DNA from: Sphingobacteriales bacterium
GTDB lineage: Bacteria; Bacteroidota; Bacteroidia; Sphingobacteriales; Sphingobacteriaceae
Direction of reading: 5' to 3'
DNA: 44,194 nucleotides
NCBI GenBank assembly: GCA_004293485.1
Contig: RDYW01000049.1
Location: 1 to 44,194 of the forward strand
Shown: piece by piece, positions 7,914-16,642 of the stretch
Numbering within the stretch: the first letter of the stretch is position 1
How the letters are laid out: each line of letters opens with the position of its first letter
Translations under genes and position numbers: made by a program
Notes under the pieces: generated by a model
What the model was told of the DNA's origin: nothing
The model's input: the letters and a program-made list of their open reading frames with translations, nothing else
The model's database searches: none

Positions 7914-9551
7914 ATGAAAATTGCTTTAGCACAATTAAACTACCACATTGGTAATTTCGATTACAATACCAATAAAATAATTGAGGTATTAAACCAGCAA
8001 AAAAAACTGGGTACACATTTGGTGGTTTTTGCCGAGTTAAGTGTGTGTGGCTACCCGCCTCGCGATTTTTTAGAATATCCATCGTTTGTAGAAATGTGCG
8101 ATAAAGCGGTGCAAAAAATTGCATTGGCAAGCACTGGTATTGCCTGTATTATTGGTTCGCCCGCTAAAAATCCCCTGCCAAAGGGAAAAAATTTATTTAA
8201 CGCTGCTTACTTTATAGCTAACGGCAAAATCAGGGCAACCGTAAAAAAAGCCTTGCTGCCCACTTACGATGTTTTCGACGAATACCGCTATTTCGAACCC
8301 GCACAACAATTTGATTGCGTGGATTTTATGGGTTATAAAATTGCCCTTACCGTATGCGAAGATTTATGGAACATGGGCGATAACCCACTGTACACCACCT
8401 GCCCTATGGACGAGTTGATAAAACAACAACCCCATTTAATGATAAACATTGCGGCATCGCCCTTTAATTATACCCAGCAAAAAACCCGCAAAGCCATACT
8501 ACAACAAAATTGCCAAAAATATAATTTACCCCTATTTTACGTAAACCAAGTAGGTGCCCAAACCGAATTAATTTTTGATGGCGGCTCAACAGTTTTAGAT
8601 AAAAACGGTAAAACCCTAGCCCAATTAAATTATTTTGAAGAGCAAATTCAGGTTTTTGATTTCGAAAATATGGGTTTGGCTTTCGCCGATGTTACCGAAA
8701 CACCTACCACCGCTACCGAGCAAATTTACCACGCTTTGGTATTGGGCATTAGAGATTATTTTCAAAAATCGGGCTTTACAAAAGCAACTTTAGGTTTATC
8801 GGGCGGTATAGATTCGGCCTTGGTATGTGCCTTAGCGGCCGAAGCTTTGGGTGCCGATAATGTGCTGGCGGTTTTAATGCCTTCAAAACATTCCTCAAAT
8901 CACTCTATAAAAGATGCCGAAGATTTGGTAAAAAACCTAGGCTGTAAAAGTATAACCTTACCCATTGCCAGCATTGCCCAAACTTTCGAAGATATTTTAA
9001 AACCCGCTTTTAACAACCTACCGCAAAACATTGCCGAAGAAAACCTACAAGCCCGCAGCCGTGGCGTGTTGTTAATGGCGTTATCAAACAAGCTGGGTTA
9101 TGTACTTTTAAATACCTCAAACAAAAGCGAAACCGCCGTAGGTTACGGCACTTTATACGGCGATATGTGTGGTGCCATTGCCGTAATAGGCGATTGTTAC
9201 AAAACCCAAGTGTATCAGTTATGCGATTTTATAAACCGTGATAAAGAAATTATCCCACAAAATACCATCACAAAACCACCATCGGCCGAGTTGCGCCCTA
9301 ACCAAAAAGACAGCGACAGCCTTCCCGATTACGATTTGCTAGATAAAGTTTTGTTCCACTATATCGAAGAAAGCAAAAGTGCCCAAGAAATTATGGCTTT
9401 GGGTTACCCCGAAGCTACCGTTAGCCGCATTTTAAACCTAGTTAACAATGCCGAATTTAAACGTTACCAAACCCCGCCAATATTACGGGTTTCGCCCAAG
9501 GCATTTGGTATGGGCAGGCGAATGCCTATTGTGTGTAAATATTTGGTTTAG
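7914..9551 (+). CDS. nadE: Glutamine-dependent NAD+ synthetase
   Basis: A 545-residue two-domain enzyme that makes NAD+ from deamido-NAD+, ATP and glutamine-derived ammonia. Residues 1-250 are a nitrilase-type glutaminase with the triad Glu41 (VVFAELS), Lys112 (VKKALLP) and Cys148 (TVCEDLW). The C-terminal synthetase holds the pyrophosphate loop SGGIDS at 296-301, NLQARSRGVLLMALSN and GYGTLYGDMCGA, and ends KAFGMGRRMPIV. Length and motif order fit the bacterial glutamine-hydrolysing form. It follows the barrel protein gene by 9 bases. The 360 bases after it carry no gene. Confidence 0.97.
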   Translation: MKIALAQLNYHIGNFDYNTNKIIEVLNQQKKLGTHLVVFAELSVCGYPPRDFLEYPSFVEMCDKAVQKIALASTGIACIIGSPAKNPLPKGKNLFNAAYFIANGKIRATVKKALLPTYDVFDEYRYFEPAQQFDCVDFMGYKIALTVCEDLWNMGDNPLYTTCPMDELIKQQPHLMINIAASPFNYTQQKTRKAILQQNCQKYNLPLFYVNQVGAQTELIFDGGSTVLDKNGKTLAQLNYFEEQIQVFDFENMGLAFADVTETPTTATEQIYHALVLGIRDYFQKSGFTKATLGLSGGIDSALVCALAAEALGADNVLAVLMPSKHSSNHSIKDAEDLVKNLGCKSITLPIASIAQTFEDILKPAFNNLPQNIAEENLQARSRGVLLMALSNKLGYVLLNTSNKSETAVGYGTLYGDMCGAIAVIGDCYKTQVYQLCDFINRDKEIIPQNTITKPPSAELRPNQKDSDSLPDYDLLDKVLFHYIEESKSAQEIMALGYPEATVSRILNLVNNAEFKRYQTPPILRVSPKAFGMGRRMPIVCKYLV

Positions 9552-9911
9552 GTGGAGGATGGTGAAGTAAGGATTTATTAATTTCCGCTAGATTTTAAAA
9601 AATTATTTTAAAAATTTGATTTGAGCGTAAACTAACCCCAACATTGGCATCATCAATATCTCAAACTAAAAAAATCTCTTTATATTTAACTGAATGAGGA
9701 TACTATTTTAGCTTTTTACGTAATCTCAGGAATAAAAACAGGCTAAAAATGGCCAAATAAAGTTGTTAAACGAGGTATAAATATTGGCAAATAGGTAGGT
9801 TTAAAGCATCATCGGGCCTTTATGATGGGTTTAAGCTTGTGGGTACAATATTTAAAGGTTACGGTCTTAAAATGTATTTTTTGTTCGTTGTAATCTTTTT
9901 ATAGCATAAAA
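9552..9911. other. Gene-free interval after nadE
   Basis: AT-rich sequence between the convergent nadE and doxX-like genes. I see no recognisable coding remnant. A weak dyad (CATCAT at 9808-9813 against ATGATG at 9823-9828) lies inside it, with no T run, so I do not call a terminator. Confidence 0.5.
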
Positions 9912-10340
9912 TTATTTTTGATTCAACCATTTTTTATCTATCGAAATATGCCCTCCGCCAACTATTAAAATAAAAATACTTCCTAATAACATTGCCCAAT
10001 CTGTTCTGCTTGCATGAAATAATTCCCAAAAACCTTTTTCATTAAATACCTCTACTTTGGTAGTGGCAATAGCTACAAGCATAATTATTATTAATGGTAT
10101 TGCTGCTAAACGGGTAATAAAGCCAATTAAAACTAATATAGCGCATATTATTTCAAAGCATCCAACAAAATTTGCTAAAAATATAGGCATACTTAAGCCT
10201 ATTTTTTCGAACCGACCAGCACCTAACGAGTCTGGGAATAAAAATTTCTGAGTTCCTTCCGAAAGAAAAACTGCACCAACCATAAGTCGAATAATAATTG
10301 TTGACTTGGTATTATCTGTTTGAATAATTTTTTGAAACAT
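9912..10340 (-). CDS. DoxX family membrane protein
   Basis: A 142-residue protein with four membrane helices, typical of DoxX. Helix 1 carries RLMVGAVFLSEGTQKFLFP, followed by GAGRFEKIGL and the second helix with NFVGCFEIICAILVLIGF; the third is LAAIPLIIIMLVAIATT and the fourth WAMLLGSIFILIVGGG. The position of ARFEKIGLP-like and EIxxG motifs matches the family. DoxX proteins are linked to thiosulfate oxidation or to redox and thiol stress, but the activity here is open. It follows chrA by 29 bases on the same strand, so it is probably the last gene of the chromate operon. Confidence 0.88.
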   Translation of the reverse strand: MFQKIIQTDNTKSTIIIRLMVGAVFLSEGTQKFLFPDSLGAGRFEKIGLSMPIFLANFVGCFEIICAILVLIGFITRLAAIPLIIIMLVAIATTKVEVFNEKGFWELFHASRTDWAMLLGSIFILIVGGGHISIDKKWLNQK

Positions 10341-10369
10341 TTGTTATAGTTTTTAAAATAATATTTTGG

Positions 10370-11536
10370 TTATATCATTAGTTTTATAAAGATGCCTAAA
10401 ACTGCTGCTGCCCCTATTATATACGGCTCTTGTAGTTTTTTACTATAAAATAAAGCTAAAATAGTTGCAATAGCAATTAATGCCGTTGGGATGTCTAAAA
10501 TGCTTCTTGTTGCAATTACAATTACTGCACCAACCAATGCGCCAACAACTGCAGCTGTAATGCCGTTTACAAATGCTTTGATAGATGTGTTTTTGGATAT
10601 TTTTTTAAAGTATGGAGCTGGTATAACTGTAAATAAATAACAAGGAAAAAACGTAGCCAAAGCTGCAACGCTTGCACCCGGAAAACCAGCGACTAAATAT
10701 CCAATAAAACCAACTGTAATTACAACCGGTCCTGGGGTTATCATCGCAACAGCAACTGCATCTACAAACTGTTGTTCTGTAAGCCAGTTATTTTCTGTTA
10801 CAACTCCGGCATGCAAAAAAGGAACTATAGCCAAACCACTACCAAAAACAAATGCACCTGCTTTAGTAAAAAAGATGGCAATTTTAGTAAGCGTAGAACT
10901 TTCGAAATTCCAAAAGCCGATTTGCAATAAAACAAAACCGTTTGCTGTGGTTTTGTTAAGCCATTTTGGGGGTGCTTTAACAAGCATATATAAAAGCCCT
11001 GCAAAAACGAATAACATAACTTGTTCATGTTTTGTTAAAAAAGTGATGGCTGCCGCTGTAAAAAAGAACAACCAAAGTATCCAATTTTCTTTAAAGGATT
11101 GAAGATTAAATTTGCCGATTGATTTTGTAGTGAGTTTGTAAGAACTGTTAGCAATAATGCCAATAACGGCTGCACCTACACCGTAAAAAACCGCTTGCAT
11201 CCATGGAAGTCCTCCATACAGTTTGTAAGCCATGCCTAACAACACAACCATTATAAAAGAAGGAATTACAAAAGCAAGCCCTACCAAAGTTGCTCCTAAT
11301 ATGCGGTAATGAACAAAGCCAATATAAATACCCAATTGTGCTGCCAAAGGCCCTGGCGCTAACTGTGCCAAAGCCAATCCTTGTTTATATTCTTCATCAG
11401 AAATCCATTTTCGTTTTTCAACTAAATCTTTGTGTATATAACTTACTAAAGCTACGGGTCCACCAAAACCTGTTGATCCTAACTTTAGGAAGTAAAAAAT
11501 GAGTTGTTGTAAAGTATATATTGGCTTACTGTGCAT
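10370..11536 (-). CDS. chrA: Chromate efflux transporter ChrA
   Basis: A 388-residue long-chain CHR family transporter, which exports chromate from the cytoplasm. It has two homologous halves of about 190 residues. The N-half shows LGSTGFGGPVALVSYIH, KQGLALAQLAPGPLAAQLG and IYIGFVHYRILGA. The C-half repeats the plan with GAFVFGSGLAIVPFL, VDAVAVAMITPGPVVITVG and FIGYLVAGFPGA. About ten membrane segments are visible. The GFGG and PGP motifs in both halves are the conserved CHR signature. It lies 11 bases after the barrel protein gene and 29 before the DoxX gene; a ChrB-domain regulator two genes upstream supports the chromate role. Confidence 0.95.
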   Translation of the reverse strand: MHSKPIYTLQQLIFYFLKLGSTGFGGPVALVSYIHKDLVEKRKWISDEEYKQGLALAQLAPGPLAAQLGIYIGFVHYRILGATLVGLAFVIPSFIMVVLLGMAYKLYGGLPWMQAVFYGVGAAVIGIIANSSYKLTTKSIGKFNLQSFKENWILWLFFFTAAAITFLTKHEQVMLFVFAGLLYMLVKAPPKWLNKTTANGFVLLQIGFWNFESSTLTKIAIFFTKAGAFVFGSGLAIVPFLHAGVVTENNWLTEQQFVDAVAVAMITPGPVVITVGFIGYLVAGFPGASVAALATFFPCYLFTVIPAPYFKKISKNTSIKAFVNGITAAVVGALVGAVIVIATRSILDIPTALIAIATILALFYSKKLQEPYIIGAAAVLGIFIKLMI

Positions 11537-11547
11537 GGTTATAAATT

Positions 11548-12048
11548 TTAAAAAGCAATGCCAAACTGGAATGCAAAGGTTAAAGATGTTGGTTTGCTGT
11601 TGCCAAATCTAACAGGAATTGGCATAGCTATAAAGTAGCTGCTGTTTTTGTTTTTAATTACAGTTTTGTTTAAAACAGGGGTAAAGCCATACCTGCCTGA
11701 TGTTTCAAAAGCCGCCCTGCCAGCAAATGTAAACCCTTTACCTAACGCTAATAATATACCTGGGTGAAACAAAAGTTTGTTTGTTTTGCTGGTACCGTTT
11801 TCTGCTTTAATGATTGGTACAAATTCCATCGAAAACCCAATCTTGGGATTTTTCCAAATATTAATACCTGTAGGCAATCCTACAACATAATGCCCATCAA
11901 AATTATAGTTTGGCTCTTGCTCACTAAATGTAACTATGGGGTGCAAAATGCCAACATAACCCTTTACTTGTGGATAATTGGTTTGTGAAAATGCTGCTAT
12001 ATGGTAAGATAAAAAAAATATAAAAATTAGGTAACGAATGTGCTTCAT
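11548..12048 (-). CDS. Secreted barrel-like protein in the chromate operon
   Basis: A 166-residue protein with a signal peptide (residues 1-21, AAFSQ cleavage region). The rest has beta-rich alternating segments (YVGILHPIVTFSE, HYVVGLPTGINIW, KIGFSMEFVPII, FTFAGRAAFETSG, SLTFAFQFGIAF) and a C-terminal Phe, as in outer-membrane barrels. I do not recognise the family. Its place between the ChrB-AraC regulator and chrA, 11 bases before chrA, suggests a role in metal or oxyanion passage across the outer membrane, or in sensing. That is inference from position only. Confidence 0.65.
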   Translation of the reverse strand: MKHIRYLIFIFFLSYHIAAFSQTNYPQVKGYVGILHPIVTFSEQEPNYNFDGHYVVGLPTGINIWKNPKIGFSMEFVPIIKAENGTSKTNKLLFHPGILLALGKGFTFAGRAAFETSGRYGFTPVLNKTVIKNKNSSYFIAMPIPVRFGNSKPTSLTFAFQFGIAF

Positions 12049-12070
12049 AATATATTTACTTAGTACTATG

Positions 12071-12078
12071 CAAAGGTA
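12071..12078 (-). promoter_or_regulatory. Promoter -7 element of the barrel-chrA-doxX unit
   Basis: The minus strand reads TACCTTTG, an exact TAnnTTTG match, 23-30 bases before the barrel protein start and inside the 58-base gap after the ChrB-AraC gene. It would let the transport genes be expressed separately from the regulator. Confidence 0.55.
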
Positions 12079-12106
12079 TTTATGAAAACATTAAATGAAT
12101 AGCAGG

Positions 12107-12976
12107 TTAATTACCTTTTGTATTTTGTTTACTTTTTTTCAAATTTTTTCTGAATGCCGATGGATTTTTGCCTGTATGTTGTTTAAATATTCTTGTAAAA
12201 TGACTTTGGTCTGAAAAGCCTGTGAGATAAGCAATTTCTGTTAGCGAGTAGGTAGAAGTTTGTATTAATTTTATCGCTTTGTTAATGCGAATTTTTCTAA
12301 TGTAGTCGCCAAAGTTTAGGTCTTCAAAATATTTTGAAAACTCTCTTGATAAATAAGAAGGGTTTATTTCTAAAGTGTTAGAAATTTTTTTTAAGTCGAA
12401 TGTAAATTGAGTGTCTATCTGGTCTTGAATAATTTCTTTTAGGTTTTTAACCCAGTTAGGTATTTTCTGTTTGTTCGTTTTCTGATCTTTCAAAAACTTG
12501 TTATACACTTCATGCAGTAAATTTTCAAAAGGACTATTTTGTAAATGTTTTTGCTTTTGAAAATGTGTAGCCCAACTGTACAAGGCATCGTAAATAAGCA
12601 TTCCTATTTCTAATAACTTGTAGTCGTTAGTTATGTTATAGCAAAGCCCTGATGAAATTGCTAAAAGACCTGCAGCTTCCTTTGCTATATCGTGTTTGTC
12701 GGTGTCGGCACCACGAACAATAACTGCCATAACCAATACTGCGGGGTTGTTTATTTTATATTTTTTTATGATGTAGTCAAAAGTACATTCGTTGTTGTAA
12801 TGCGTATACTCTACATCAGGAATGTCAAATGGAATAGCGTCAAACTTTTTTGCATTAGTAAGCACTTCGGCGAATGGAACGTATATAAATTCGGCATCTT
12901 CATCAACAAATTTTTTTATAAGCCATGGGCAAGCTAATCTGTCAATTTTGGGTCGTTCTCTTGTAATCCATTTCAT
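12107..12976 (-). CDS. Chromate-sensing regulator: ChrB domain fused to AraC-type HTH
   Basis: A 289-residue protein joining two known domains. Residues 1-140 match the ChrB C-terminal (chromate resistance) domain: WITRERPKIDRLACPWLI, FIYVPFAEVLTNAKKFDAIP, CTFDYIIKKY and VRGADTDKHD are its conserved blocks. After a charged linker (about 140-190), residues 195-280 form an AraC/XylS double helix-turn-helix: INPSYLSREFSKYFE, IRKIRINKAIKLI, LTEIAYLTGFSDQSHFTRIF and TGKNPSAFRK. In Proteobacteria ChrB regulates chrA, with an unrelated N-terminal DNA-binding part. Here the AraC domain probably takes over DNA binding while the ChrB domain senses chromate. It is the first gene of the chromate module and has its own promoter and an upstream palindrome. 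Confidence 0.9.
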   Translation of the reverse strand: MKWITRERPKIDRLACPWLIKKFVDEDAEFIYVPFAEVLTNAKKFDAIPFDIPDVEYTHYNNECTFDYIIKKYKINNPAVLVMAVIVRGADTDKHDIAKEAAGLLAISSGLCYNITNDYKLLEIGMLIYDALYSWATHFQKQKHLQNSPFENLLHEVYNKFLKDQKTNKQKIPNWVKNLKEIIQDQIDTQFTFDLKKISNTLEINPSYLSREFSKYFEDLNFGDYIRKIRINKAIKLIQTSTYSLTEIAYLTGFSDQSHFTRIFKQHTGKNPSAFRKNLKKSKQNTKGN

Positions 12977-13003
12977 TTTTCCTTTGTGTTTTTTTTATAT
13001 ACT

Positions 13004-13011
13004 CAAAGGTA
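13004..13011 (-). promoter_or_regulatory. Promoter -7 element of the ChrB-AraC gene
   Basis: The minus strand reads TACCTTTG, an exact Bacteroidota -7 match, 28 bases before the ATG at 12976. A clear -33 TTTG is missing, as is common for promoters needing an activator. Confidence 0.6.
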
Positions 13012-13048
13012 ACAATAGATTTTATTTTTGTATATTCTTGCTGGCTAG

Positions 13049-13065
13049 TTAAGCAAGATGCTTAA
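13049..13065. promoter_or_regulatory. Candidate operator of the chromate regulator
   Basis: TTAAGCA and TGCTTAA form a perfect 7-bp inverted repeat with a 3-base spacer, centred about 50 bases upstream of the -7 element of the ChrB-AraC gene. An overlapping weaker dyad (TTGCT at 13038-13042 with AGCAA at 13052-13056) adds to the symmetry. The place is right for autoregulation, but AraC proteins usually bind direct repeats, so the binding protein is uncertain. Confidence 0.45.
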
Positions 13066-13605
13066 AATTAGAATTTTATACTTATAAAAAATAGATTGGT
13101 AATTAATTTTAGTATGGTAAAATTTAAAACGGTATTATATTTTTTTTCGTTTAGAATTACCGCGACATCTTTTTTTAGCCAAAGCTTCCTGTAAAAGGAT
13201 AGAGTAAATAATAAAAATAAAAATATATGATTTTAGTTTGTTGGGGTAAACTTAAAGTGAATTAAAACGGTCGATTATTCTCATAAAATATTTTAACTAT
13301 CTAACTTTATTGTTAAAAAAAATAATTTTTAATTTTATTTATCGGCATTATCGTAAGTAATTTTACTTAAGCTTATAAACTTTTACAGTTATAAAATAAC
13401 TATAACACTCAAAAAAAAACATAAAATTATTTTACCAATTTTATATTAACTATAAATGTTGTGAGCATTCGGCAAGCTTATTTAATATGAATTGGCAAAT
13501 AAGGTAAAAAAACCATAAGATTTAAAAAAGCAGAAACAGTGTAATACATTTATTCTTCAAAACATAATCATATAATGCTATATTTTATTATTCAACATAA
13601 TAAGT
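13066..13605. other. AT-rich gene-free interval
   Basis: About 540 bases of very AT-rich sequence upstream of the ChrB-AraC gene and downstream of nirD. No open frame of note, no hairpin with a T run and no repeat longer than about ten bases was seen. Confidence 0.5.
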
Positions 13606-13944
13606 TTAAACACCTATCCACACTTTTCCATCAATAACTTTTACAGAATAAGTTTTTATGGCACATTCATCGCCGCTAAGGCACTCGCCAGTTAGTAAAG
13701 AGAAAGTTTTTTTATGAAATGGGCAGGCTACTTTTGGTTCGCAAGTATCGCCTACGCTACCTATCATACCTCGCGATAAGGCCATTTGTTTCTTGTGTGG
13801 GCAAAGGTTTTGCGTAGCATACCACTCGCCACGGCGGGTAAAATTAAATACAGCTATTTGCTCGTCGTTTATTTTTACGCAAGCACCGCCGTTTTCGGGT
13901 ATATCGGTAGTGTTGCAGGCTAAAATCCATTGTGTTTGTGTCAT
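13606..13944 (-). CDS. nirD: Nitrite reductase small subunit, Rieske type
   Basis: A 112-residue partner of NirB in assimilatory NADH-dependent nitrite reduction to ammonium in the cytoplasm. It is a single Rieske domain with the complete [2Fe-2S] ligand set: Cys48-Pro-His50 in LCPHK and Cys74-x-x-His77 in ACPFHKKTF. The enterobacterial NirD lacks these ligands, so this one is of the iron-sulfur-binding kind seen in other bacteria. The gene starts 202 bases after the nirB stop, with a GC-rich repeat between, and has no promoter of its own that I can see; co-transcription with nirB is likely. Confidence 0.92.
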   Translation of the reverse strand: MTQTQWILACNTTDIPENGGACVKINDEQIAVFNFTRRGEWYATQNLCPHKKQMALSRGMIGSVGDTCEPKVACPFHKKTFSLLTGECLSGDECAIKTYSVKVIDGKVWIGV

Positions 13945-13954
13945 ATTTTTTTTT

Positions 13955-14141
13955 GGCCTCGGGCTTTTGGGCTTCGGGCAACGGGTTTCTAGTTTGTTGT
14001 GTTAGTTGCTTCGGGCTTCGGGCAACGGGCTTCTAGTTTGTTGTATTAGTTGCTTCGGGCTACGGGCTACGGGCTTCTTTTTTAATGTGTTAATGGCTGT
14101 GGAAGCCCGAGGCCCGAGGCTCAAAAGCCCGAAGCTCGCGG
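13955..14141. repeat. GC-rich repeat cluster between nirB and nirD
   Basis: Two tandem 44-bp copies (13972-14015 and 14016-14059) differ at two positions, and a degenerate third begins at 14060. Each is built on the short motif CGGGCTTCGGGC. The segment 13955-13979 recurs inverted at 14111-14135 with few mismatches, so the transcript could fold into a long hairpin. Base composition is far more GC-rich than its surroundings. The open frames that cross it on either strand are only products of the repeat. Confidence 0.8.
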
Positions 14142-14146
14142 CTATC

Positions 14147-16642
14147 TTACCATGCTGCTGCTTGTTTCTGTTCTCGCAAAGGCTCAAACTTTATGCTTGG
14201 GTCTTTTTCGTTGGGGGCGTTTACAAAATGGTTAAATTTCTTTTTTAAATTTTGGTTGTCCACTACTTCTTTCCACTCGCATACATAACCCTTAATTAAA
14301 CCTGCTATTTCTTCTTCTAAACTTTGGCAAATACCTAAGCTATCGTTTACAATTACGTTTTTAAGGTAAGCCATGCCGCCATCCATTTTGTTTAACCAAG
14401 TGGCGGTACGGGTAAGGGTATCGGCGGTTTTAATGTAAAACATTAAAAACCTATCGAGGTATTGTATGCAAGTAGCCTCATCAATATCGGTAGCCAGTAG
14501 TTGAGCGTGTTGTGGTTTGCTTCCTCCGTTACCGCAGATATAGAGGTTCCAACCTTTTTCGGTGGCTATTATACCAAAATCTTTTGCTTGGGCTTCGGCA
14601 CACTCACGCACACAACCACTTACGCCGCCTTTTAATTTATGTGGCGAGCGCAACCCTTTGTACCTGTTTTCAATTTCAATAGCAAACGATACGCTATCGT
14701 GTAAACCAAACCTGCACCAAGTGCTGCCTACACAGCTTTTTACGGTACGTAACGATTTTCCGTAAGCGTGACCACTTTCGAAACCAGCATCAATTAGTTT
14801 CTCCCATATTGCAGGTAAATCCATTACGTGAGCACCAAACAAATCTATACGTTGGCCGCCTGTAATTTTGGTATAAAGGTTATATTCTTTGGCTACTTGG
14901 CCTATAACAATGAGTTTATCGGCGGTAATTTCGCCGCCTGGTATGCGTGGCACTACCGAGTAGGTGCCTCCTTTTTGTATGTTGGCCAAATACCTATCGT
15001 TGCTATCTTGTATGGTATCTTGTTTTAAAATTACTTCGTTCCATAATCCAGCTAACATACTGGCAATAGGTGGTTTGCAATTTTCGCAACCATCGCCTTT
15101 GCCAAAGGTATCTAAAACTTGGTCGTAGGTTTTTATTTTATTAATGCGTATTAAATCTAATAATTCCTGACGAGAATAATCAAAATGTTCGCATATTACA
15201 TTTTTAATATATTTACCGTTTTCTTTTAACGTACCTGTAATAATATCTTTAACCATAGGTATGCAACCGCCACAACCTGTACCTGCTTTGGTACATTTTT
15301 TCATCCCATCAATGGTGGTAATATCTTGTTCAATTACGGCACTGCAAATATCGCCTTTGGTAACGGCTTCGCAGCTACACACTAGGGCTTCATCGGGTAG
15401 GTTCATTACGCCAGCACCTTCGGCGGCGGCTCCGCCTCGGCTACCTAAAATAAGGTCTTCGGGGTTGGGTGGCAATACAATTTTGTTGTTAACGGTTTGC
15501 AAAAGCATACTGTATGCTTCGGCATCGCCAATTAAAATCCCACCTAAAAGCTGTTTCCCATCGTTACTTATGTTTATGCGTTTGTAAACGCCTTTGTGTG
15601 TATCTTCAAAAATTATGGTGCGGCAATCGGGTTCGGTAATAAAAGCATCGCCAAAGCTGGCTACATCTACCCCAATTAGTTTTAGTTTGGTGCTCATATC
15701 AAAACCATTAAACTGTTTTTGGGCATTGCACAAATTAGCGGCAACTACTTCGGCCATTTCGTAACCTGGGGCAATAAGGCCGTAAATCATTTGGTCGTAA
15801 AGGGCGCACTCGCCTATGGCATAAATACTTGGGTCGCTGGTTTGTAAACTCTGGTTTACCACAATACCACCACGTAGGCCTACTTCAAGCCCACAAAGTT
15901 TAGCAAGTTCGTCTCTGGGCCTAATACCTGCCGAAATCACCAACATATCAAGCGGTAATTCGGTATCGTCGTTAAACTTTAAGGCTTCAATTTTATGGTC
16001 GCCTGCTATGTAGCTTGTGTTTTTGTTTAGGTGTACGGTTAAGCCAAATGTTGCTAGTTTTTGTTGTAAAATAGCACTTCCAGCACTATCTATTTGCCTA
16101 GGCATTAGCCTTGGTGCAAACTCTATAACATGGGTTTCTTTAATTCCTAAATCTATTAATGCTTTTGCGGCTTCGAGGCCTAATAGGCCACCGCCCATGA
16201 TGGCTCCCGATGTAGATTTTGCAGCCCAAGCTTTCATTAAATCTAAATCTTCGATGGTGCGGTACACAAAAACGCCATCTTTTTCTACGCCTGGTAAATT
16301 GGGTACAAACGCAGCCGACCCTGTAGCCATAATTAAATAATCGTATTTTAAAACGATTCCTTTTTGAGAATTTATGGTTTTTGTTGAACGTATAATTTCT
16401 GTAATTGGGTCGCCAAGGTGCAGGGTAATGTTGTTTTCGGCATACCAAGTGGCGGTACTCATAGATAGGTCTTCGGCGGTTTTGCCTGCAAAATATTCGC
16501 TTAAATGTACACGGTCGTAAGCTCTACGCGGTTCTTCACCAAAAACTATGATTTCAAAATCGGCTGATTTTGCTCTTAGTTTTTCGCAAAACTTATAGCC
16601 TACCATACCGTTTCCTACTACTATTACAACTGGCTTTATCAT
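14147..16642 (-). CDS. nirB: NADH-dependent nitrite reductase large subunit
   Basis: An 831-residue enzyme that reduces nitrite to ammonium with NADH. Residues 1-400 are an FAD/NAD(P)-binding reductase (VVVGNGMVGYKF near the start, GGGLLGLEAA for the second nucleotide fold). A BFD-like [2Fe-2S] domain follows (CSCEAV, then GTGCGGC around residue 450), with a second Cys pair in GCENC. The C-terminal siroheme/[4Fe-4S] domain carries Cys637, Cys643, Cys677 and Cys681 in SCVGSTWC and SGCVREC, the standard C-x5-C-x33-C-x3-C ligand set, followed by NLYICGNGG. Length is normal. It lies first in a nirB-nirD unit; a Crp/Fnr-like site is upstream. Siroheme would come from the CobA product encoded nearby. 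Confidence 0.97.
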   Translation of the reverse strand: MIKPVVIVVGNGMVGYKFCEKLRAKSADFEIIVFGEEPRRAYDRVHLSEYFAGKTAEDLSMSTATWYAENNITLHLGDPITEIIRSTKTINSQKGIVLKYDYLIMATGSAAFVPNLPGVEKDGVFVYRTIEDLDLMKAWAAKSTSGAIMGGGLLGLEAAKALIDLGIKETHVIEFAPRLMPRQIDSAGSAILQQKLATFGLTVHLNKNTSYIAGDHKIEALKFNDDTELPLDMLVISAGIRPRDELAKLCGLEVGLRGGIVVNQSLQTSDPSIYAIGECALYDQMIYGLIAPGYEMAEVVAANLCNAQKQFNGFDMSTKLKLIGVDVASFGDAFITEPDCRTIIFEDTHKGVYKRINISNDGKQLLGGILIGDAEAYSMLLQTVNNKIVLPPNPEDLILGSRGGAAAEGAGVMNLPDEALVCSCEAVTKGDICSAVIEQDITTIDGMKKCTKAGTGCGGCIPMVKDIITGTLKENGKYIKNVICEHFDYSRQELLDLIRINKIKTYDQVLDTFGKGDGCENCKPPIASMLAGLWNEVILKQDTIQDSNDRYLANIQKGGTYSVVPRIPGGEITADKLIVIGQVAKEYNLYTKITGGQRIDLFGAHVMDLPAIWEKLIDAGFESGHAYGKSLRTVKSCVGSTWCRFGLHDSVSFAIEIENRYKGLRSPHKLKGGVSGCVRECAEAQAKDFGIIATEKGWNLYICGNGGSKPQHAQLLATDIDEATCIQYLDRFLMFYIKTADTLTRTATWLNKMDGGMAYLKNVIVNDSLGICQSLEEEIAGLIKGYVCEWKEVVDNQNLKKKFNHFVNAPNEKDPSIKFEPLREQKQAAAW

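Follow-up and report, generated by a model that had tools for sequence, protein, structure and literature searches.

A ChrB_C–AraC fusion regulator and its candidate operator at chromate efflux loci of Bacteroidota

Introduction

How is a chromate efflux gene controlled where the regulator next to it is not a classical ChrB? This question is raised by a locus in a 44,194-nucleotide stretch of DNA from Sphingobacteriales bacterium (assembly GCA_004293485.1, contig RDYW01000049.1; this whole stretch is called the window here). The regulator gene, which joins a ChrB_C domain to an AraC-type double helix-turn-helix (HTH), is transcribed first on the minus strand, and the gene of a small predicted barrel protein, chrA and a DoxX gene follow in this order. 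The regulator is likely to be a chromate activator of the AraC type, working as a one-component system, and to have a defined candidate operator and a regulon that includes the barrel gene and chrA. An AraC-style activator had been proposed in a preliminary description of the locus and is still the best reading, given a direct-repeat element that abuts the target promoter and recurs at unlinked chrA, barrel and DUF1259 genes. Loci (L) and genomes (G) are cited below by their working numbers.

The fused regulator

The preliminary description had placed ChrB_C ahead of a complete AraC double HTH, and Pfam bears this out within a single 289-residue frame: PF09828 (ChrB_C) matches residues 3-135 (E 5e-48; 163.2 bits vs a cut-off of 25) and PF12833 (HTH_18) matches residues 199-277 (E 1.5e-20; 73.7 bits vs a cut-off of 33.6). 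ChrB_N (PF20229) has no match in the protein up to E 1, and in the same Pfam test two classical ChrBs of sphingomonad plasmids match both ChrB_N and ChrB_C. Because ChrB_N is missing, the fused regulator is not a classical ChrB. The HTH part of its predicted model matches AraC-type HTH structures with Z up to 12.5 (VIA-align).

The window aside, a near full-length match is present in 7 of 59 relatives. A profile of the regulator finds matches at E<=1e-30 in 115 of 399 same-family genomes, and inspection by eye assigned these as full length in 98, partial in 5 and confined to the HTH part in 12. The family would be Sphingobacteriaceae, provided that G018 is a Hufsiella, as an identical protein indicates. 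The domains are thus not split in relatives, the outcome that the preliminary description had named as a refutation, and a fusion created by assembly is ruled out by the full-length gene in these 98 genomes and the near full-length match in the 7 relatives. Among the best 80 loci listed, the fusion is found in Flavobacterium, Chitinophaga, Dyadobacter, Mucilaginibacter, Pedobacter, Algoriphagus, Larkinella, Saprospiraceae and others. A Spirosoma plasmid carries a fused gene annotated as 'chromate resistance protein ChrB domain-containing protein', with the HTH present, followed by a gene for a 197-residue hypothetical protein. The ChrB_C–AraC architecture is common across Bacteroidota and is no local oddity; both the fusion and its conservation were computed directly. 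Among the open-licence papers on chromate and ChrB that were listed, no title or abstract opening reports such a fusion.

In a phylogenetic tree, the window regulator clusters with seven Flavobacterium proteins (support 99/88, the bootstrap not being settled), and four proteins of its own genus fall outside this group. It shares 79% identity with the nearest protein of the Flavobacterium group compared with 58-65% with the same-genus proteins. These sequence relationships suggest that the window cassette was probably acquired by horizontal transfer. The window genome has one ChrB_C gene.

The sensor domain

In ChrB of Ochrobactrum tritici, the R180A, R187A and H229A substitutions abolish chromate induction, the R175A, R182A, R195A, R196A and C213A substitutions have no effect on it, and R18A and R23A result in constitutive expression, according to PMC3817168. 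The spacing of residues 180, 182, 187, 195 and 196 matches that of positions 6, 8, 13, 21 and 22 of the fused protein, and H229 lies near H59, which is the sole invariant histidine among nine aligned ChrB_C proteins. R6, R13 and H59 are invariant in all 58 fused proteins aligned (the window protein and those of 57 of the 80 genome-search loci), and positions 8, 21 and 22 are variable. Therefore, the three residues that O. tritici ChrB needs for its chromate response seem to be kept as R6, R13 and H59, an equivalence drawn from spacing and from alignment to ChrBs other than that of O. tritici.

ChrB_C is modelled with confidence, its blocks having a predicted local distance difference test (pLDDT) score of 90-98, compared with about 50 in the linker and mostly 70-85 in the HTH. 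The predicted domain (residues 1-143) superimposes on 6mtz with Z 12.0 over 136 residues and a root-mean-square deviation of 2.8. Further VIA-align matches are the PAP phosphatase 8a8k (Z 7.9), PggH 7d62 (7.3), NrN (6.9 to 6.4), Cdc45/RecJ-Cdc45 (6.3 to 5.2) and family II pyrophosphatases (5.1 to 4.8); the tool itself describes scores below 8 as common, and only 6mtz, titled 'uncharacterized', exceeds 8. We take all of these to belong to one (DHH) superfamily, and the fold of ChrB_C is thus predicted to be DHH-phosphoesterase-like. ChrB_C has no Pfam DHH match (PF01368) and no visible DHH motif, and hhalign gives a probability of 0.1% or less against NrnA or RecJ of the relatives, with a ChrB_C alignment of low diversity. 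The likeness to DHH-superfamily phosphoesterases is therefore one of predicted fold, and no sequence homology is found by Pfam or hhalign. No ChrB_C structure is found among the 27 Protein Data Bank sequences matched by the fused profile at E<=0.01, which cover the HTH part only. One hypothesis built on the model is that ChrB_C reuses a phosphate-type pocket for chromate; the DHH-like fold, if true, would suggest oxyanion sensing by a former phosphate pocket.

Candidate operator and promoter

The gap 3' of the regulator gene holds the same kind of element irrespective of the gene that follows. A 40-bp position weight matrix (PWM), trained on the same loci that it scores and so descriptive rather than an independent test, exceeds 5 bits in the stretch that follows the regulator in 82 of 87 loci; shuffled stretches, in which base content alone is preserved, have a mean of -14, a 99th percentile of 1.3 and a maximum of 20.5. 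One locus (L103) is the same as L024 and was dropped from the scan, and no start was obtained for L068 and L076. Scores below 5 bits are seen in L098, L070, L065, L076 and L108. By eye, the element carries an insertion or deletion in L098 and L065 and lies farther downstream in L108; L070 has none beside the regulator, yet two elsewhere in its genome. In the 82 loci the start of the element ranges from 42 nt before to 33 nt after the last base of the stop codon, and the frame changes. Because distance and frame vary in this way, it is the DNA rather than a peptide that is conserved.

The column pattern of the element has a period of 18 bp, at 0.148 against 0.061 for the runner-up. Counted from the last box, TAnn[A/T]TTG comes 18 nt on in 43 of 78 sites and 19 nt on in 7, and 28 sites have none within 12-24 nt; shuffled tails hold the motif in 2.7%. 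TAnnTTTG is the -7 promoter consensus of Bacteroidota. In the window TAHHTTTG alone occurs 68 times against 65.4 expected, which is not above chance, and so the significance of TACCTTTG rests on the conserved spacing between element and promoter. The last box would occupy the position of the -33 element, a geometry for which we assume class II activation as the frame. The element and the promoter spacing were computed directly, as was the set of genes that carry the element. The separate promoters that the preliminary description gave to the regulator and to its targets are retained, each with its own TACCTTTG (Table 1).

Autoregulation through the same element was considered and rejected: in the stretches upstream of the regulator genes (<=200 nt each) the PWM reaches at most 7.4 bits (L082), followed by -0.1, and the stretch upstream of the window regulator contains no such element, its best score being -4.1.

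AraC paralogues with the same HTH and another N-terminal domain are found in L216 (2011-2817; G430 C21), G108 C8, G380 C63 and G295 C1. In L216, G108 and G380 a partial operator-like site follows the gene or HTH match at a distance of about 5-11 nt; in G295 the distance is 140 nt. The N-terminal domain of the L216 paralogue has a weak AraC_binding match, below the cut-off. From these sequences, the HTH family may keep an operator behind its own gene.

Genome-wide distribution of the operator

A sequence-only model of the operator, R1, was built from 48 sites (the window and 47 loci) and searched in the 399 genomes already used for the regulator profile. A site is present in 111 genomes at E<=1e-4 and in 99 at E<=1e-6. 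The ChrB_C regulator is carried by 97 of the 99 (93 full length, 4 partial), and the remaining two, G252 and G295, have a match to the HTH part only. At 1e-6 the site is absent from 6 of 103 regulator genomes, and at E<=1e-5 it is present in all 98 genomes with a full-length gene. Five genomes with neither gene have weaker sites (1.6e-6 to 7.9e-5). The co-occurrence of site and regulator has a Fisher p of 1e-82, which is inflated by the relatedness of the genomes and by the few among them that apparently gave training sites. All of the 30 best sites sit at the 3' end of a regulator gene (two of the genes being partial), and the window genome has one strong site.

In 32 genomes, selected mostly for a regulator without an adjoining chrA, R1 finds 42 sites at E<=1.3e-7, followed by a gap to 4.9e-5. 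Thirty of these sites are at regulator genes (L203, L207 and L214 among them) and 12 lie away from any such gene. Seven of the 12 precede chrA (G441, G443, G431, G433, G437, G436, G439), one precedes a barrel-chrA pair (G430), one a barrel gene beside another AraC-family gene (G429), and three precede DUF1259 genes (G441, G443, G439). Family searches confirm eight ChrA (including that of L204) and three DUF1259 proteins at these sites, and a profile confirms the G429 barrel (E 2.6e-91). Below the gap are sites at the G451 regulator, a lone ChrB_C gene in the G440 cluster (7.4e-5), the cupin-type AraC paralogue of G430 (1.5e-4) and a G442 chrA (9.2e-4). The sequence between the boxes differs between linked and unlinked copies. 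Some of the R1 training sites stood before chrA, and descent of the promoter together with chrA could account for the unlinked sites; yet the sites are conserved apart from the regulator. Dyadobacter psychrophilus (L070, G439) has strong sites before an unlinked chrA-DUF2490 pair and DUF1259 genes, and none behind its regulator gene.

Neighbouring genes

The window ChrA scores 395.9 bits against TIGR00937, the curated cut-off being 171.7. Neighbours were clustered in 88 stretches (the window, 7 loci of relatives and the best 80 genome-search loci listed) with up to 6-7 kb on each side; the clusters were named from one representative each, and some diverged members were missed. ChrA is found in 54 stretches, the barrel in 43, superoxide dismutase (SOD) in 14, a lone ChrB_C protein in 12, DUF1259 in 11, RND pumps in 10 and DUF2490 in 7. 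The barrel protein, which the preliminary description had made a partner in the chromate module, is thus a frequent neighbour. DoxX, counted there as a member of the module, does not keep that place: besides the window it is found in L094 only, some 3 kb upstream of the regulator and away from the cluster, and it stands directly behind ChrA in the window only. DoxX is probably a passenger outside the conserved module.

Searched up to E 1, Pfam and NCBIfam yield no match to the window barrel protein. An AlphaFold model (mean pLDDT 91.5) gives an N-terminal, signal-peptide-like helix and eight barrel strands, and Foldseek relates it to barrels of the OmpA/OmpX/Ail type and to designed barrels with a template modelling (TM) score of about 0.5. 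The eight predicted strands after a signal helix would be shared with OmpA/OmpX/Ail-type barrels, whereas identity is only ~10%, no family matches and the protein has conserved motifs of its own, such as AFETSGRYG and PVRFGN, in an alignment of the window protein with 34 of 36 clustered barrel genes. Judging from the operator sites, the barrel belongs to the regulon. The preliminary description had called it a component not known from chromate systems; in agreement with this, no title or abstract opening among the open-licence papers listed was about an outer-membrane barrel component of such systems.

Table 1. Features of the chromate locus in the window
Feature	Position	Strand	Basis and remarks
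Regulator gene, ChrB_C and AraC double HTH, 289 residues	12107..12976	-	Single open frame; full length in 98 of 399 same-family genomes
ChrB_C domain (PF09828), presumed chromate sensor	12572..12970	-	Pfam; DHH-like fold by prediction alone
HTH_18, AraC-type, residues 199-277	12146..12382	-	Pfam; coordinates derived from residue numbers
Candidate operator with a pair of direct repeats, period 18 (GTAA..ATACAAA / GGTAA..TGCTATTC)	12097..12136	-	Contains the regulator stop codon (12107-12109); R1 match at 12067-12138, E 8.8e-10
TACCTTTG, -7 element of the target (barrel gene) promoter	12071..12078	-	18 nt past the last operator box
Small outer-membrane barrel protein (predicted), 166 residues, signal helix and 8 strands	11548..12048	-	Structure model
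chrA, chromate efflux transporter, 388 residues	10370..11536	-	TIGR00937 above cut-off
TACCTTTG, -7 element of the regulator's own promoter	13004..13011	-	No operator-like element adjoining
DoxX gene, 142 residues	9912..10340	-	PF07681, E 4e-17; behind chrA in the window only; probably a passenger

A small HTH_1 protein is encoded beside a distant barrel relative in L277 (2586-2972, minus strand) and another, below the Pfam cut-off, beside the barrel-chrA pair of L272 (2294-2551, minus strand); we take both to be ModE-like, Pfam giving HTH_1 alone, and on this basis the barrel family may have a wider role with oxyanions. TauE/SafE-type permease genes are present in L025 (10399-11370), near the regulator-barrel-chrA cluster, and in L272 (7395-7997), near barrel-chrA; large genes of TonB-receptor-like type lie in between. 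Genes for outer-membrane efflux and RND pumps stand directly behind the regulator in L052, L054 and L092 and behind chrA in L073, and the RND pump may be part of the same response. Upstream of the window regulator, 13606-16642 encodes Rieske-type and nitrite/sulfite-reductase-type proteins, presumably NirD and NirB.

Comparison with known systems

The fused regulator resembles classical ChrB, such as that of O. tritici, in its ChrB_C sensor, in the response residues apparently kept and in the linked chrA. Classical and fused-regulator clusters also share accessory genes: chrB-chrA has LpqO (DUF1259) and SOD as neighbours in Novosphingobium, and SOD, ChrE and a lone ChrB_C protein in Cupriavidus sp. 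USMAA2-4. Since SOD, DUF1259/LpqO and lone ChrB_C are common to both kinds of cluster, the accessory genes point to chromate. In contrast to classical ChrB, the fused protein has no ChrB_N, and the AraC HTH behind ChrB_C is the predicted DNA-binding part; its direct repeats lie upstream of the -7 box, whereas O. tritici has an inverted-repeat operator that overlaps the -10 (PMC3817168). In Arthrobacter FB24, separate chromate-induced genes encode the N- and C-terminal parts of ChrB, and so ChrB_C is a separate module beside chrA there as well; the accessory genes differ (chrJ, chrK and chrL), and PMC2751784 makes no mention of AraC. AraC/XylS regulators with a cupin-type N-terminal domain, such as the L216 paralogue, share the HTH and linker (profile positions about 148-280), and the operator model has a partial match behind the gene or HTH match of such paralogues in G108, G380 and G430; their ligand domain is of AraC_binding type instead of ChrB_C.

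Proposed mechanism and alternatives

We infer that the regulator binds the element, that chromate is its ligand, that binding activates transcription and that the barrel takes part in the response. In this mechanism, the N-terminal ChrB_C would bind the chromate oxyanion in the cytoplasm, and the C-terminal AraC double HTH would bind the two 18-bp direct repeats at 12097-12136, the last box of which would lie at the -33 position of a Bacteroidota promoter. The ligand-bound regulator would recruit RNA polymerase to the TACCTTTG promoter and so activate both the barrel gene and chrA. Elsewhere among the genomes it would act in trans on unlinked chrA, barrel and DUF1259 genes. ChrA would export chromate across the inner membrane, and the barrel would act at the outer membrane. 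By this scheme the fused regulator should resemble an AraC activator in its action and ChrB in its sensing.

Several observations weigh against this mechanism. Only a close ChrA is informative, because ChrA of any kind is present in 304 of the 399 genomes. Among the 98 genomes with a full-length regulator, a close ChrA (E<=1e-107) is found in 77 and is split over two frames in two more (G009, G018); by eye, 16 hold only a more distant ChrA and three (G075, G193, G220) have no ChrA (TIGR00937) at E<=1e-40. Conversely, a close ChrA occurs in 88 of the 399 genomes, of which 79 carry the ChrB_C regulator (by eye) and nine do not (G073, G112, G004, G403, G008, G167, G006, G016, G252). The barrel is present in 111 of the 399 genomes, and 30 of these are without the regulator; ten of the 30 were inspected and show barrel-chrA without the element in L271 and L272 and other surroundings elsewhere. 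ChrA and the barrel have no strict tie to the regulator, and the inducer range might extend beyond chromate. The preference for activation over repression, in turn, rests on the geometry of the site and on the habit of the family, AraC-type proteins being mostly activators.

The same regulator and operator might answer to another oxyanion, or to a redox or sulfur-starvation signal to which chromate also gives rise, the regulon then being a general oxyanion or efflux response. In a few loci the regulator is followed not by ChrA but by genes of an RND pump (L052, L054, L092), of MacB type (L082, L107) or of TonB-receptor type (L070), and these loci, the TauE-type genes of L025 and L272 and the three regulator genomes without ChrA speak for such a wider inducer. 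It is nevertheless unlikely, since the unlinked sites are mostly at chrA (8 of 12 including barrel-chrA), the residues of the O. tritici chromate response seem to be kept and the accessory genes match those of classical chromate clusters. A repressor that releases the same operator on binding chromate is less probable still, because the element stops a fixed distance upstream of the -7 box and because of the family habit noted above. Such a mode would follow O. tritici ChrB, where a reporter without chromate is higher in chrB-less cells, but the operator there overlaps the -10 and is bound by the very part that is missing here (PMC3817168). Finally, the overlap of the element with the 3' end of the regulator gene would suit an RNA element or a trace of the regulator C terminus rather than an operator. 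This is very hard to credit: 48 sequences have no consensus pairs, window positions 9000-14000 have no Rfam match, the distance to the stop codon and the frame shift between loci, and the element recurs at 12 unlinked genes.

Implications for Bacteroidota

The ChrB_C–AraC regulator is a widespread variant of chromate regulation, for which titles and abstract openings of the open-licence papers listed offered no name. More tentatively, it may belong to a chromate response of the Bacteroidota's own, in which an oxyanion-binding domain of DHH-like fold that has lost catalysis is joined to an AraC HTH, and one type of operator unites ChrA efflux at the inner membrane, a small barrel dedicated to the outer membrane and helpers in the periplasm, also in trans, so that chromate is handled across both membranes; we hold this wider reading to be possible rather than probable. 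If it is true, chromate systems would have an outer-membrane part in this barrel, and the papers listed gave no other such part. If the proposed chromate regulation is right, a defined chromate regulon and operator would be at hand for a phylum common in soils and sediments, predicting which genes respond and making an outer-membrane protein family without a name testable, and the regulator with its operator could serve as a chromate biosensor part for Bacteroidota.

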